Assembly (NCBI GenBank): GCA_012728115.1
Contig: JAAYFS010000023.1
Location: 30,049-94,048 of the forward strand
DNA: 64,000 nucleotides
Origin: Bacillota bacterium
GTDB taxonomy: Bacteria; Bacillota; Limnochordia; Darwinibacteriales; JAAYFS01
Direction: 5' to 3'
Position 1 is the stretch's first letter; every line of letters begins with the position of its first letter. Shown in pieces: positions 52,815 through 61,018 of the stretch. The position numbers and the translations under genes are program-made. The notes beneath the pieces are model-generated. The model had not been told where the DNA came from, did no database searches, and worked only from the letters and a program-made list of their open reading frames with translations.

Positions 52815-53612
52815 CTAGCACCCTGCCAGGAGAGAGCGGTCGTCTAGCATCGCTTCCTTTCGTAATTGAGTAAACTTCTGAATCAAACCTTCAACCGTTG
52901 CGTTTTCTCGTTCTTCTCCACTAATATCTAAAACAATTTCACCTTCATGCATCATAATGGTGCGATCACCAATTTCAAGGGCATGACGCATATTGTGAGT
53001 AACCATCAGGGTGGTTAAATTATTTTCACGAATGATTTTATCCGTTAACTCCATAATCTTCTCAGCGGTCTTTGGATCTAAAGCTGCGGTATGCTCGTCA
53101 AGAAGCAATACTTCTGGTTTGGTGATGGTCGCTAAAACAAGGGCTAGAGCCTGCCTTTGGCCTCCAGACAATTCCCTTACTTTAGTGAACAAGCGTTTTT
53201 CAAGCCCTAAGTCCAATGGTTCAAGAGTCTCTTCAAACAGTTTGATATTCTTCCTGGTTAGACCCCAGCGCAGATTCTTCCTTTTACCTCTTAAAAAAGC
53301 CAATAAAAGGTTTTCGGCGATACTCATATCACCTGCTGTGCCCACTAAAGGATTTTGGAACACCCGACCGATCCATTTCGCTCTTTCATGTTCTGGTTTG
53401 TTACTAATCTCGATGTCATTTAGTGAAATCGTGCCAGCGCATTGAGAATATACTCCAGCTAACACATTTAAGAGAGTAGATTTACCCGCTCCATTACTTC
53501 CCACAATGGTAAGAAACTCTCCCGCTTCCAAAGTAAGATTGATTCCGTTTAACGCATTGGTTTTGCGACCTTCCACATCAAATTCTTTGTGGAGACTCGT
53601 TATCTTAAGCAT
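52815..53612 (-). CDS. ABC transporter ATPase (TrpX-like uptake system)
   Basis: This ATPase of about 265 residues shows Walker [13 protein letters not shown], the signature [11 protein letters not shown] and Walker [16 protein letters not shown]; the residue after DE is His as in this subfamily. It energises uptake by the permease encoded immediately upstream. I chose ATG at 53612, eight bases after AGGTGA and overlapping the permease gene by 8 bp, rather than GTG at 53624. It is the last gene of the operon. Confidence 0.92.
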
Positions 53613-54531
53613 GTTCAGTATCACCTGCCTTCTTACCGAAAAAATTCACAAACTTTCTCTCTTTTAAGAAAGCAGGAGCAAATTTCCCCTTAAGTTGAGG
53701 TAATACCAGAGCAATCACTACTAAAACGGCCGTAATTAAACGTAAATCAGTAACTGGGACATCCATTCTAAGCACAAAATAGATTGCGGAGCGATAAATA
53801 AATGCTCCAAGCACCACACCGAGTACTTGTTTGAGTACACTTCCATTCAAAATCGCTTGCCCGATAATCACACAAGCTAAACCTTGAACCACCATTCCTA
53901 AACCCATATTTACATCCGCAAAGCCTTGGTACTGCCCAAATAAAGACCCAGAAAAAGCTATTAGTGCATTAGACAAGGCTAAACCAATAATCTTCATATT
54001 ATCAGTGTTTACGCCTAGGGCATTCATCATCGCACTATTATTTCCCGTTGCTCGCATTGCGATCCCAAACTGAGTATTTAACAAATAAAAAAGAAATACT
54101 CCGACCAAAACCAGGGCGACAACAAAAATTATTAAACCTGTGTATTGGCGAGCTACTCCTAGATCCTCAACCCAACGCAAAAGAGTGGGCTGTCTCGATA
54201 GTGGTACATTAGGACGGCCCATTATTCGTAAGTTAACCGAATATAACCCTGTCATTGTTAAAATACCTGATAATAACGGGGTAATATTTAGTTTTGTGCT
54301 CAAAATACCTGTAATAGCTCCAGCTAACATTCCTGCGACAACTGCTACTAAAACTGCTGTCCAGGGAGAGTAGCCGCTAACGATCATAGTTGCGGACACT
54401 GCAGCACCAAGTGGAAAACTACTGTCCACCGTCAAGTCCGCGGTATTTAGAACTCTAAAAGAAATGTAAACCCCCAAAGCCATTAGCGCAAAAACTAAAC
54501 TTTGTTCAATTGCTGGAAGCCATGTTAGCAT
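53605..54531 (-). CDS. ABC transporter permease (TrpX-like uptake system)
   Basis: This 308-residue protein with about eight to nine helices belongs to the branched-chain/ribose-type permease family. It has [20 protein letters not shown] near the start and [43 protein letters not shown], the coupling region of this subfamily. It pairs with the substrate-binding protein upstream and the ATPase downstream. The ATG follows AAAGGAGG. Confidence 0.92.
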
Positions 54532-54555: not shown

Positions 54556-55530
54556 TTAGTCTTGTATTACTTTGCTTGCTGAATCAATAATCTCTGGAGA
54601 AACATTTACTCCCATTCGCTTAGCAGCATCTAAGTTAACTACGATCATGGTTTCTTCTTGGAATCCAACTGGAATCTTTGCAGGCGAAGCCCCATCGAGG
54701 ATTTTTGCAGCCATTTCACCAGTTTGAACACCAATATCGTAGTAACTAATTCCAACTGTAGCCAAAGCTCCCTTTTCCACAGAGTTATCTTCACCCGCAA
54801 TTAGCGGAATCTTGAAATCTTCTGCAATCATGATCATGGACTCGATAGCGGTTACCACCGCATTATCAGTCCAAACATAAAACGCATCTACCCTACCAAC
54901 TAGCGATTGAGCAGCTTGATAAACTTCGGCAGTGCTACTAACACCTGCTGTAATCAATCTTAGCCCGTATTCTTTGCATACTTGTTCAGCAATCGCTTTT
55001 TGAACTGCGGAGTTAGCTTCACCAGGATTATATACAGCACCGATTGTTTTTACATTTGGAAACATTTTTTTCAATAATTCAATTTGAAGTGCGATTGGAG
55101 TAAGATCAGAAACTCCAGTAATATTGCCACCAGGTTCTTGAAGACTTTTTACTAGGCCAGCTTGCACTGGATCTGTAACAGCTGTAAAAACGATAGGAAT
55201 CGTGCTTGTCGCATGAGCGGCAGCTTGAGCGGCAGGAGTTGCTATTGCTAAAATCAAATCAACTCCCGAATTGACAAACTGTTGGCTAATCATCGACGCG
55301 GTTGCAAAATCACCTTGAGCGTTTTGATATTCGATCTTTACCTTGTCAACGCCATACCCATTTTTCTCTAGTCCATCTAAGAACCCAATCCTTGCAGCAT
55401 CCAATGATGGATGTTCCACTAACTGAACAATCCCGACTTTTACTTGTTTTGCCTGTCCTAAAGTAACAAGTCCCAATACCAACACCATTGTTAAAGTCGC
55501 TAATCCAATGATTCTAAGCCTTGCTTGCAT
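54556..55530 (-). CDS. ABC transporter substrate-binding protein (TrpX-like, ABC_sub_bind family)
   Basis: This 324-residue exported binding protein has a signal peptide (hydrophobic about 7-26), then KVGIVQLVEHPSLDAARIGFLDGLEKNGY, VDLILAIATPAAQAAA and IPIVFTAVTDPVQAGLV, typical of family PF04392. Members such as TrpX bind aromatic amino acids, others bind unknown ligands. A lipobox cysteine is absent. The ATG follows GGGGAGAGAGG. It is the first gene of the operon, behind a strong promoter and a leader with a terminator, so its ligand or a related metabolite may be sensed by the RNA. Confidence 0.9.
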   Translation of the reverse strand: MQARLRIIGLATLTMVLVLGLVTLGQAKQVKVGIVQLVEHPSLDAARIGFLDGLEKNGYGVDKVKIEYQNAQGDFATASMISQQFVNSGVDLILAIATPAAQAAAHATSTIPIVFTAVTDPVQAGLVKSLQEPGGNITGVSDLTPIALQIELLKKMFPNVKTIGAVYNPGEANSAVQKAIAEQVCKEYGLRLITAGVSSTAEVYQAAQSLVGRVDAFYVWTDNAVVTAIESMIMIAEDFKIPLIAGEDNSVEKGALATVGISYYDIGVQTGEMAAKILDGASPAKIPVGFQEETMIVVNLDAAKRMGVNVSPEIIDSASKVIQD

Positions 55531-55692
55531 TTTCCTCTCTCCCCAACGAAAAATTATATAAAAAAAGAACTCCGCCTAATGGAGCCCTTGGTTCCCAAGG
55601 TTCCGTTTAAGATTCAGCGTTTTTTATCCGTTTTTTGCTTATTAAAAAAAGATTTATGTTTGTTTTTCGTACAGAAACGCAAAATAATTGAT
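55531..55692 (-). ncRNA. Candidate cis-regulatory leader RNA (terminator/anti-terminator type)
   Basis: The transcript predicted from the promoter at 55699-55727 has a leader of about 160 bases. In order it shows GCGTTT and AAACGC closing a large AT-rich loop, a hairpin GGAACCTTGG-GAA-CCAAGGGCTCC (55581-55604), and an intrinsic terminator GGGCTCC-attaggc-GGAGTTC with a run of seven Ts (55567-55587). The two hairpins share the GGGCTCC arm and exclude one another, as in riboswitches and attenuators. There is no ATG for a leader peptide and no T-box consensus. It matches no riboswitch class that I recognise. Confidence 0.6.
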
Positions 55693-55698
55693 GTATCT

Positions 55699-55727
55699 AT
55701 TATATTAACATAATTACAACCCGTCAA
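55699..55727 (-). promoter_or_regulatory. Sigma-A promoter of the TrpX-like ABC operon
   Basis: The -35 TTGACG (55722-55727) and a perfect -10 TATAAT (55699-55704) are separated by 17 bp on the minus strand, with an AT-rich spacer. Transcription would start near 55692, giving the leader annotated separately. Confidence 0.9.
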
Positions 55728-55765
55728 GCCCATTATTTCAAATAATGGTCCGAGATATAAAAAAT

Positions 55766-57626: not shown

Positions 57627-59132
57627 TTAACGAGAAAGTTTAGCTACATCGACAACATAAATCGGGTAATTTAGCCATCCTTGAATATCCTTTTGCATAA
57701 CCGCTAATTGGTTTGGATCCATCACAAAAACACCCGCCACTTCTTTAGCCAAAATTTCTTGAGCTTCATGATAGATTGCAATCCGTTCTTCACCACTGGT
57801 AACTAATCCTTGGGCAATCAATTCATCATAACGTTCATTCTTAAAGTTAAAGAAATTTCGGCTTGAGTTAGTTTGATATCTTACTAAGATCAAATGGGGA
57901 TCCATCCTGCCCGCCAATCCTACGATTGTAGCATCATAGTCCCTTTGAGAATAAATTCGTTCTAACCAAGTTCCCCATTCAACTATTCGTATCTCAACGT
58001 CCACTCCAATCTTAGCCCATTGTTGCGCTACTATTTCACCAGCATTAACGTGTAACGGATAGGGGGCTGGTAGTTCAAACGTAAAGGAAAGATTACTATA
58101 TCCCGCCTCCTCTAAAAGAGCTTTCGCCCGTTCAGGATCATAAGCATTTACTTCGGCAAGTTCCTCATTGAAGAAAGTAGCCATTGCAGGACTAATAGCA
58201 CTATACAAGGGATCGCCAAGACCCCATGCCGCACCAGTGATTACTTCCTGTTTATCAATAGCTAAGGCAAGTGCTTGCCGAACTCTTGGATCATTAAATG
58301 GCGGTCGAGAGTTATTGAGAGCAATTATCTGAACCAAATTCATCGGGCCAGGAATTACTTTTAAATCTTCCTCATCCACTACCTGATGATGAAAACTAGG
58401 ATCTAGGCGCGGAATCAAATCTACATGCCCTGCTTTTAAGCTGATTACCGCACTAGCCATTTCAGGAATAATCTTAAAATACACTTCTTCGAAGTGCGGT
58501 TGTTCACCTGACCAATGATCATCGAATCTTACTAGTTTAACATACTGATTTGCTCGCCACTCTTCAAACTTATATGGACCAGTTCCGATCGGGTTAGCGT
58601 CCAACCCAGTAGCATCTTTTGGATAAATCGAAGCCGCAAAATCAGCCAAATTAAAAAGGAAAGGCCCGTATGGCTGAGACAATTTTATCTGAATCGTATT
58701 CTCATCCAAAGGCGTAATCGACTCAATAACTTGATACTCATCTGCTTTTCCTTGAGCAATCTGTGGATCTCTAACTCGTTCTAAGGCGTTTACTACGTCC
58801 TCAACTGTCAAAGGTTGCCCATTATGAAATATTGCCTCTCGTAAATAGAAAGTATAGACCGTCTCAGTTTCGTCAACCTCCCAATGAGTTGCTAAAGCGC
58901 CAACGACATTACCATCAGCTGTTGCCTTAACTAACCCTTCATAAATATTAAACGCAATTTCCACAGTAGCAGCTGCGACAGACTGATTCGGATCGAATGA
59001 ATCAGGATCCGTTTCGATCGCAATATTTATTACCCTAGAATTATCAACATTTTTTCCTTGGAAAAGGTAATAAGCTCCACCCGCAACGAGTAAGACTACC
59101 AAAGCGATAATTATTACTCGATTTGTTTTCAT
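57627..59132 (-). CDS. Extracellular solute-binding protein family 5 (OppA/DppA type)
   Basis: This 501-residue binding protein has an N-terminal membrane anchor/uncleaved signal (hydrophobic 6-22) with no lipobox cysteine. Family motifs are NIAIETDPDSFDPNQ, FYLREAIFHNGQPLTVEDVV (the HDG-type motif), NPIGTGPYKFEEWRANQYVKLVRFDDHW and PPFNDPRVRQALALAIDKQEV. The ATG overlaps the tetR stop (ATGA), so the repressor and binding protein are translationally coupled. The ligand is unknown. Confidence 0.92.
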   Translation of the reverse strand: MKTNRVIIIALVVLLVAGGAYYLFQGKNVDNSRVINIAIETDPDSFDPNQSVAAATVEIAFNIYEGLVKATADGNVVGALATHWEVDETETVYTFYLREAIFHNGQPLTVEDVVNALERVRDPQIAQGKADEYQVIESITPLDENTIQIKLSQPYGPFLFNLADFAASIYPKDATGLDANPIGTGPYKFEEWRANQYVKLVRFDDHWSGEQPHFEEVYFKIIPEMASAVISLKAGHVDLIPRLDPSFHHQVVDEEDLKVIPGPMNLVQIIALNNSRPPFNDPRVRQALALAIDKQEVITGAAWGLGDPLYSAISPAMATFFNEELAEVNAYDPERAKALLEEAGYSNLSFTFELPAPYPLHVNAGEIVAQQWAKIGVDVEIRIVEWGTWLERIYSQRDYDATIVGLAGRMDPHLILVRYQTNSSRNFFNFKNERYDELIAQGLVTSGEERIAIYHEAQEILAKEVAGVFVMDPNQLAVMQKDIQGWLNYPIYVVDVAKLSR

Positions 59133-59758
59133 CCTTGATCTTCTCCCTTCCCTTTCAGCATCAAACCATCCTTAAGAATATTGAGTACATTATTAATAAA
59201 CCGTAGATGTTCTTCCACTTGTTCACCAGTTAAATGCTGAAAACTATCGATTAACTCTTTTCCAACCGAATGATACACAAAAAAGGCTGCTTCCATACAT
59301 ATATCTGGCCGTACTATCCCTTGCTTAATCGCGTTCTCTAAGTGTTCTTGAAAGTCGCTAGCACGCAACTCTTTATTATCAAGAATATATTGTCGTAAAC
59401 TCTGATCCTTACTATCCCAGAAGTTATTGATCACTCGATGATATAAAGGATATTGAAGCGAAAACTGAAACGACTTCTGGTAGTAATTTGCTAAGGTTGT
59501 AAAGAAATCGTCTCCTCTTTCAAATACATCGACAAGAAATTCTTTCTTTACGGAGTACACTAATTCTATAATGTAGAAATAAATCGCCCGTTTGTTTTCA
59601 AAGTATTGATACATACTCCCTTTAGCGATCCCTAGCTTACTTACCACCCGGGAAATCGAAGCGGTTTCAAAAGGATTTTCCGCAAATTCTTGAATTATAG
59701 CATTGATTATTTCCTCTTGTTTTGCTTGTGGCAAATTCCAAAAGGTCTCCTTTGGCAT
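59129..59758 (-). CDS. TetR-family transcriptional repressor of the opp operon
   Basis: This 209-residue protein has an N-terminal helix-turn-helix: EEIINAIIQEFAENPFETASISRVVSKLGIAKGSMYQYFENKRAIYFYIIEL, a clear TetR signature. A variable ligand-binding domain follows. I chose ATG at 59758, seven bases after GGGAGG. The ORF-track start 11 codons upstream would read through the operator palindrome. Two operators between the promoter and the gene indicate autoregulation of the whole tetR-oppABC operon. The ligand is unknown. Confidence 0.9.
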   Translation of the reverse strand: MPKETFWNLPQAKQEEIINAIIQEFAENPFETASISRVVSKLGIAKGSMYQYFENKRAIYFYIIELVYSVKKEFLVDVFERGDDFFTTLANYYQKSFQFSLQYPLYHRVINNFWDSKDQSLRQYILDNKELRASDFQEHLENAIKQGIVRPDICMEAAFFVYHSVGKELIDSFQHLTGEQVEEHLRFINNVLNILKDGLMLKGKGEDQG

Positions 59759-59773
59759 CAACACACCTCCCAT

Positions 59774-59793
59774 ATATGACCGCCCAGTCATAT
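59774..59793. promoter_or_regulatory. TetR operator, proximal copy
   Basis: This 20-bp inverted repeat ATATGACCGCCCAGTCATAT has one mismatch and sits immediately upstream of the tetR Shine-Dalgarno. It shares the core TGACYGCCCAGTCA with the distal copy. Confidence 0.8.
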
Positions 59794-59852: not shown

Positions 59853-59881
59853 ATTATAACATGGAAATTTATCCAGTTCAA
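59853..59881 (-). promoter_or_regulatory. Sigma-A promoter of tetR-opp
   Basis: The -35 TTGAAC (59876-59881) and a perfect -10 TATAAT (59853-59858) have 17-bp spacing on the minus strand. The -35 overlaps the stop codon of the upstream chrA gene. Both operators lie downstream of the predicted start, so bound repressor would act as a roadblock to initiation or elongation. Confidence 0.88.
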
Positions 59882-60435
59882 CCCATAAAGACAAAAAAAC
59901 CAACTGCGGCTGAAACCAAAATTGTTTTGATCGGATCAACTTTATAGCGCCACACAGCTACAAATACTCCAATCGCAATCAAGATACTCCGAAAATCAAT
60001 AGCTAGTCCACTATTAGCAAGCAAAGGTTCCGAAAATAAAGCTGCTTTCGCAATAAAGATTGCGGCAGAAGCAATTAGTCCTGCCATCACTGGTCGTATT
60101 CCTGAAAAAATAGCCACCATGACTGGATGGTCCTTATACTTTTCCCAGAACTTACTCAAAGCAACGATAATTATGAATGAGGGCAATGATACACCTAAGG
60201 TTGCCACAATCGATCCTATTACCCCTGCATTTCGAAAGCCAACAAAAGTAGCTGCATTGATAGCAATTGGACCAGGAGTCATTTCTGCAATCGCCACTAT
60301 ATCCACGAACTCTTGGACAGTTAACCAACCGTACTTCTCGATCTCATATTGAATCAACGGAAGCATAGCGTAGCCTCCACCGATAGTAAAGAAGCCTATC
60401 TTAAAAAAGGCGAGAAATATATGCAGTAAAACCAT
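59878..60435 (-). CDS. Half-size chromate transporter ChrA (second subunit)
   Basis: This 185-residue six-helix protein of the short-chain CHR family has FFTIGGGYAMLPLIQYEIEKYGWLTVQEFVDIVAIAEMTPGPIAINAATFVGF, the CHR signature. I prefer ATG at 60435, eight bases after GAGAG; GTG at 60444 touches the Shine-Dalgarno. It works with the adjacent paralogue. Substrate of short-chain CHR pairs is often chromate but may be another oxyanion. Confidence 0.88.
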   Translation of the reverse strand: MVLLHIFLAFFKIGFFTIGGGYAMLPLIQYEIEKYGWLTVQEFVDIVAIAEMTPGPIAINAATFVGFRNAGVIGSIVATLGVSLPSFIIIVALSKFWEKYKDHPVMVAIFSGIRPVMAGLIASAAIFIAKAALFSEPLLANSGLAIDFRSILIAIGVFVAVWRYKVDPIKTILVSAAVGFFVFMG

Positions 60436-60454
60436 TCTTGTCACTCTCTCTAAA

Positions 60455-61018
60455 TTATTTTCCTGAAGTTTTTAACACATAATTGAGTATAAAACCGCAG
60501 GCCGCTCCACCGACAATGAGCCATACCGCATGGATATCGGTAAAAACATTGAGGGCAAAGGCGATTAACCCAAGGATAATCGCTGTACGACTAATTGCAG
60601 TTTGAAGAACTACCCTTAATGCCGCTGAAGCTACCAAACCAGCGACTGCTGCTCTAATCCCATTAAAAATCCTTAGAATAATATCGCTTCCTTGGATCTG
60701 GACAAAAAGACTTGCGATAGTCATGATGACTAGTAGCGATGGTAGAATTACGCCTGTGGTTGCCGCAATCGCTCCCCAAAAACCACCACGTCTATTACCA
60801 AAGAAGGTCGCTGTGTTAACGGCTATCACTCCAGGAACAGATTGAGATAGCGCATAAATATCCAAAATTTCTTCCTTCGTTGACCAATTACGTTTTTCAA
60901 TGATTTCTTTTTCAATCAAAGGTAGCATTGCTAATCCGCCACCAAAAGTGAAAAGACCGATCTTAAAGAAAGCTACGAATAATTCCCCCATCTCAGCAAG
61001 GGTAATACTTTTTTTCAT
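60455..61018 (-). CDS. Half-size chromate transporter ChrA (first subunit)
   Basis: This 187-residue paralogue of the neighbouring ChrA half has FTFGGGLAMLPLIEKEIIEKRNWSTKEEILDIYALSQSVPGVIAVNTATFFG. The two genes are about 20 bp apart with separate Shine-Dalgarno sites, so they are genuine separate subunits, not a frameshifted long ChrA. The ATG follows AAAGGA. Confidence 0.9.
   Translation of the reverse strand: MKKSITLAEMGELFVAFFKIGLFTFGGGLAMLPLIEKEIIEKRNWSTKEEILDIYALSQSVPGVIAVNTATFFGNRRGGFWGAIAATTGVILPSLLVIMTIASLFVQIQGSDIILRIFNGIRAAVAGLVASAALRVVLQTAISRTAIILGLIAFALNVFTDIHAVWLIVGGAACGFILNYVLKTSGK

Follow-up and report, generated by a model that had tools for sequence, protein, structure and literature searches.

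A putative attenuator leader before a predicted L-tyrosine importer operon in a Limnochordia bacterium

In the genome of a Bacillota bacterium of the class Limnochordia, a promoter and a long untranslated leader stand before the genes of an ABC importer, and an intrinsic terminator lies within that leader. The locus raises the question of whether, and by what, passage of RNA polymerase into the importer genes is controlled, and which substrate the importer would carry. The original prediction, made from the letters of the 64,000-nucleotide stretch of contig JAAYFS010000023.1 that was analysed (hereafter the window), took the leader for a ligand-controlled terminator, which it could not assign to a known riboswitch class, in front of a TrpX-type transporter of unknown substrate.

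A separate transcription unit for a predicted tyrosine importer

On the minus strand, a promoter with 11 of 12 matches (TTGACG-17-TATAAT, 55727–55699), the top one of seven in the region, comprises a −35 box TTGACG (55722–55727) and a −10 box TATAAT (55699–55704) separated by a 17-bp spacer. From a start at about 55692, the leader runs for ~160 untranslated nucleotides up to the ATG at 55530, which is preceded by a strong Shine–Dalgarno sequence (GGGGAGAGAGG, 55534–55544, minus strand). The near-consensus promoter and the untranslated stretch that had been described here are both real. Because the Opp-type operon upstream ends in a 12-bp terminator of its own (55793–55763, minus strand), the leader constitutes a separate unit, and because the leader terminator lies downstream of the promoter, the architecture is that of an attenuator and not of the upstream operon's tail. 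Elsewhere in the window, two chromate-transporter-type genes lie side by side (59878–61018; the first with a PF02417 match), near a TetR-family regulator (59129–59791) and the Opp-type operon.

The importer operon, also on the minus strand, encodes a PF04392 substrate-binding protein (54556–55530), a BPD_transp_2 permease (53605–54531) and an ABC ATPase (52815–53624). Scored against the TrpX equivalog (NF041285), the binding protein reached 311.9 bits, below the cut-off of 390 bits, and its specificity residues differ, so that TrpX was rejected as the substrate class. Among relatives of the protein with known structures, CD0873 (6hni) binds tyrosine, 3lkv phenylalanine and 3lft tryptophan. For CD0873 of Clostridioides difficile, a member of the same family (PDB 6hni), specificity is set at two positions, Glu263/Ala and Tyr279/Gln (PMC6816091). 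Glu247 and Tyr263 of the window protein correspond to Glu263 and Tyr279 of CD0873, the tyrosine pair, and are unlike the residues of the tryptophan binder SP1069; the two proteins differ in that Pro236 of CD0873 is a Trp in the window protein. Judged by this pair, the operon is predicted to encode an L-tyrosine ABC importer, which replaces the earlier assignment as TrpX-type with unknown substrate.

A leader terminator with a competing hairpin

The leader ends in an intrinsic terminator (AAGGGCTCC-ATTAGGC-GGAGTTCTT; 55565–55589, minus strand) with nine pairs, four of them G–C, and a T run that extends to 55560. An imperfect, antiterminator-like hairpin (CUUAA..GGA.CCUUGG GAA CCAAGG..UCC.UUAGG; 55611–55575, minus strand) takes the terminator's 5′ arm and loop (GGAACC...GGGCTCC), and the sharing of one arm by the two structures, as originally proposed, was borne out. 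Constrained folding of the 3′ part of the leader gave −13.1 kcal/mol for the full terminator and −13.8 kcal/mol for the antiterminator; the best state, at −13.9 kcal/mol, combined the 6-bp core of the hairpin with a terminator shortened to 5 bp. The two structures thus compete for the 5′ arm but are not mutually exclusive in the strict sense that had been claimed, and since the shortened terminator coexists with the core hairpin, any switch formed by them may leak or lack regulation.

Among 75 terminators predicted in 421 kb of this genome, only three, this leader included, have a competitor that equals or exceeds the terminator in stability and sequesters at least 75% of its arm. When the arm was held fixed and the upstream 45 nt were shuffled, equal energy together with arm sequestration was reached by 5% of shuffles; the competing hairpin is therefore marginally above chance (P ~0.05). 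With a promoter, a leader that is not translated, an intrinsic terminator ahead of the coding sequence and a hairpin competing for that terminator's 5′ arm, the locus is a transcription attenuator in the broad sense, and the order of promoter and terminator, together with the competing hairpin, supports the attenuator-type arrangement that had been noted before this ABC transporter.

Our leading interpretation, which we advance tentatively and would not yet call probable, is that the stretch comprises the promoter and attenuator leader of the predicted L-tyrosine importer operon, with readthrough set by alternative folds. RNA polymerase would start near 55692 and make ~130 nt, after which transcription would end at 55565–55560 if the RNA adopts the terminator, or continue into the importer genes if it adopts the overlapping hairpin (55611–55575), the two being nearly equal in energy. 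As the 5′ half of the leader is A/U-rich and unstructured, we infer that the balance would be set by something that binds there or travels along it, be it an RNA-binding protein or a ribosome, and not by a metabolite aptamer; the signal would likely be tyrosine supply. The leader would probably throttle importer expression. The promoter, terminator, alternative pairing, palindrome (below) and tyrosine-type residues lie in the sequence itself, whereas the regulation of termination, and its agent, we infer. The interpretation draws on the scarcity of terminators with so stable a competitor and, by analogy, on homologous importers that appear to bear attenuators tuned to aromatic amino acids.

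Control could instead act on the DNA. A perfect 19-bp palindrome (CCATTATTTGAAATAATGG, 55730–55748), which the original prediction did not mention, occurs once in the window and ends 2 bp upstream of the −35 box. In 421 kb of this genome, few palindromes have arms of at least 9 bp and a spacer of 0–1, and the other genome copies of this one carry two mismatches (one copy, in a coding region) or three (two copies). The palindrome is a candidate operator, and its position so near the −35 box points to a possible additional layer of control acting on the DNA. A CodY-like site was considered and rejected, a comparison by hand with the consensus giving ~8/15 matches. It is possible, although in our judgement doubtful, that a transcription factor at this palindrome exerts the control and that the terminator is an incidental, partial and unregulated one, the overlapping hairpin being due to chance. 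Such an account would accommodate the rare perfect palindrome, the shuffle values (P ~0.05 for the hairpin and 0.06 for the outer arm), folding z-scores of about −0.5 and the coexistence of the hairpin core with a short terminator; it would also suit the importer orthologues of the class, in most of which no leader terminator was detected and several of which, by eye, seem to lie directly after an Lrp/AsnC-type gene (L007, L009, L011–L016, L018, L021, L022). It has to contend with the fact that only 4% of the genome's terminators (421 kb) have such a competitor, that a constitutive terminator ~35 nt before a gene needs a means of passage, and that neither a second copy of the operator nor a cognate regulator was found.

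The 5′ half of the leader

If alternative folding is regulated as the attenuator interpretation supposes, the 5′ half would be the part that receives the signal. This A/U-rich region (55617–55680, minus strand) has no stable fold. Its GCGTTT (55680–55675) is complementary to AAACGC (55622–55617), as had been pointed out; the pairing built on this complementarity fared less well, with a predicted probability of ~0.3 for the arm and a 6-mer pair as good in 5.9% of shuffled leaders. Neither the whole leader (z −0.62) nor its 5′ 83 nt (z −0.49) folded better than shuffled sequences, and the comparison yields no evidence for an aptamer.

The absence of a leader peptide, also part of the original prediction, holds for peptides with a Shine–Dalgarno sequence or a run of aromatic codons, but a weak candidate exists in a UUG-start ORF of 22 codons (LRFCTKNKHKSFFNKQKTDKKR, then the stop; 55682–55614, minus strand). 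Were it translated, attenuation could be mediated by the ribosome, which at the UGA would cover the CUUAA/GGA arm and favour the terminator and, when stalled upstream, would leave the arm free and permit readthrough. We regard this as unlikely. The stop does lie 9 nt before the GGA arm, an ORF as long arises in only 2.6% of shuffles and homologous importers do use leader peptides; however, the UUG is ~10 nt from the 5′ end with no Shine–Dalgarno sequence, there is no tyrosine codon and only three for phenylalanine, and the Lys-rich codons are expected by chance in an A-rich leader. The leader thus lacks both the Shine–Dalgarno sequence and the codons for the regulating amino acid that mark ribosome-mediated leader-peptide attenuators. 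A Tyr/Phe-rich frame in the leader (N-Y-F-A-F-L-Y) has no start codon and was discarded.

A metabolite-binding element was sought among known RNA classes and by homology. Rfam 15 covariance models gave no match above the gathering score in the window and, on the leader strand at E up to 10, nothing meaningful, the best being an insignificant 22.4 bits against 90 for Ref1C; the statement that the leader matches no known riboswitch class is confirmed to that extent. When the leader was used as query in DNA searches, its own genome yielded no second copy and 72 further genomes of the class yielded no orthologue; a single 30-nt match, in G021, falls within a short ORF in another gene neighbourhood and was set aside as chance. 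The window's genome is the sole member of its family among the genomes compared, and the binding protein's nearest homologues, in a scan of the genome collection with the protein alignment, are ~57–58% identical, so that there is no alignable orthologous leader from which to build a covariance model and, consequently, conservation is shown for none of the pairings. A new riboswitch for tyrosine or another aromatic compound, folded by the originally proposed pairing scheme, would be in keeping with a terminator/antiterminator arrangement before a transporter and with the empty Rfam search. We nevertheless consider it very improbable, because the 5′ domain has ~25% G+C and folds like shuffled sequence, and because the leader recurs neither in the 72 other genomes of the class that were searched nor elsewhere in its own; the claim of ligand control is left unsupported.

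T-boxes carry a stem I with a specifier and a bulge UGGNACC. Nine were found in the window's genome, the hairpin's GGGAACC faintly resembles the bulge, and promoter and terminator alone would give a ~130-nt RNA, yet a degenerate T-box or a small RNA ending at the terminator is the least credible account of all: the T-box model (RF00230) found no match even at E up to 10, stem I, specifier and T-box sequence are absent, in agreement with the earlier statement that this is no T-box, and the best small-RNA match is the insignificant one to Ref1C.

Devices before homologous importers

Leaders of homologous importers carry several kinds of transcription control. Five (L023, L024, L025, L027, L029) matched the T-box model RF00230; read by eye, the specifier is UAC (Tyr) in three of them (L023, L025, L027), while that of L029 is probably UUC (Phe). 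A T-box also stands before trpXYZ of Streptococcus suis (RF00230; PMC9382623), where, as in the window, attenuation precedes a PF04392-type aromatic importer; stem I, specifier and T-box sequence are, however, all missing from the leader in the window.

Leader peptides form a second kind. In Bacillota MAGs (L049:3740–3937, L067:640–843, L089:3705–3913), Phe/Tyr-rich peptides of ~22 codons, such as MGRQNSFFTSSYYSYYYYPRKRE, are followed by a terminator and by binding proteins with the tyrosine pair, and their alignment shows a length difference of 3 nt that keeps the frame. In two Leptolinea importers (L081, L082), a Phe7 leader peptide and a terminator lie ~190–25 nt before the binding-protein gene, whose product has the phenylalanine-type Ala/Tyr pair. 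These five attenuators of the pheL/trpL kind share with the window a short leader and a terminator ~60 nt before the gene, but theirs are ATG-started peptides with runs of Phe/Tyr codons, whereas the window offers an ORF that starts with UUG, lacks a Shine–Dalgarno sequence and contains no Tyr codons. Where both could be read, the putative sensor and the substrate predicted from the residues agree: Tyr T-boxes go with Glu/Tyr, and the Phe7 peptide with Ala/Tyr. Separately, a match to the c-di-GMP-I-GGC riboswitch (L028:3015–3106) was seen near a PF04392 gene with an unusual Asp/Phe pair.

A third kind consists of GUAG motifs that recur at a period of 8, seen before importers of the tyrosine type in seven leaders (L058, L064, L070, L075, L083, L084, L086) and more weakly in L010, L056 and L096. 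In L084 and L086 the repeats extend over the start region, and most of the UAG-repeat leaders also have a terminator. Across the homologue leaders, TAG pairs 8 apart number 23, against 1–13 for the other spacings from 4 to 20, and the second-commonest spacing is 16, twice 8. Four genomes have a second site of the GUAG pattern directly before a DAHP synthase gene (L191, L195, L196, L197).

A PF09021 (HutP) protein is encoded in 10 of 10 genomes of the GUAG group as against 12 of the 36 other genomes that bear homologues (Fisher P ~1e-4 with G080, common to both groups, removed), the group having been picked out by visual inspection of leaders ahead of the HutP test and its genomes being partly related. 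Among the HutP-like genes examined (L203–L212 and L215), three lie directly before the importer (L204, L210, L211), one before DAHP synthase (L215) and two beside an AroH chorismate mutase (L203, L207). No NCBIfam equivalog claims the two HutP-like proteins tested, and phmmer returned no PDB match for that of L211. Together these observations suggest that the HutP-like proteins regulate aromatic amino acid genes by binding RNA, although the GUAG repeats could be a DNA site instead. None of the papers searched connected HutP with chorismate mutase, a result that does not establish novelty. The link of a HutP-like protein to aromatic amino acid genes by way of period-8 UAG repeats offers a testable role for HutP homologues outside histidine use.

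HutP-type antitermination does not extend to the window, where the importer has neither of the two features seen in its homologues: PF09021 found no match in the window's genome and the leader sequence contains no UAG. One could go further and suppose that the importer family has exchanged its sensors from lineage to lineage (Tyr T-boxes in some, Phe/Tyr leader peptides in others, and in others again UAG repeats together with a HutP-like protein), and that the window's lineage, devoid of HutP, has yet another sensor type without known relatives, which would make its leader a tyrosine-responsive attenuator unlike those described; we hold this wider reading to be a long shot. Taken alone, the leader merely adds to the orphan attenuator candidates. 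It gains weight beside the differing devices of transcription control before orthologous importers of aromatic amino acids, which make a good family in which to study the replacement of regulatory RNAs.

Among the T-boxes of the window's genome, one (L139; G000:C49:6787–7011), with a UAC (Tyr) specifier by eye, precedes a tryptophanase/tyrosine phenol-lyase-like gene, the reading frame of which is broken after ~100 codons and resumes in a different one. It is odd for a gene of degradative type to stand behind a leader induced by starvation.
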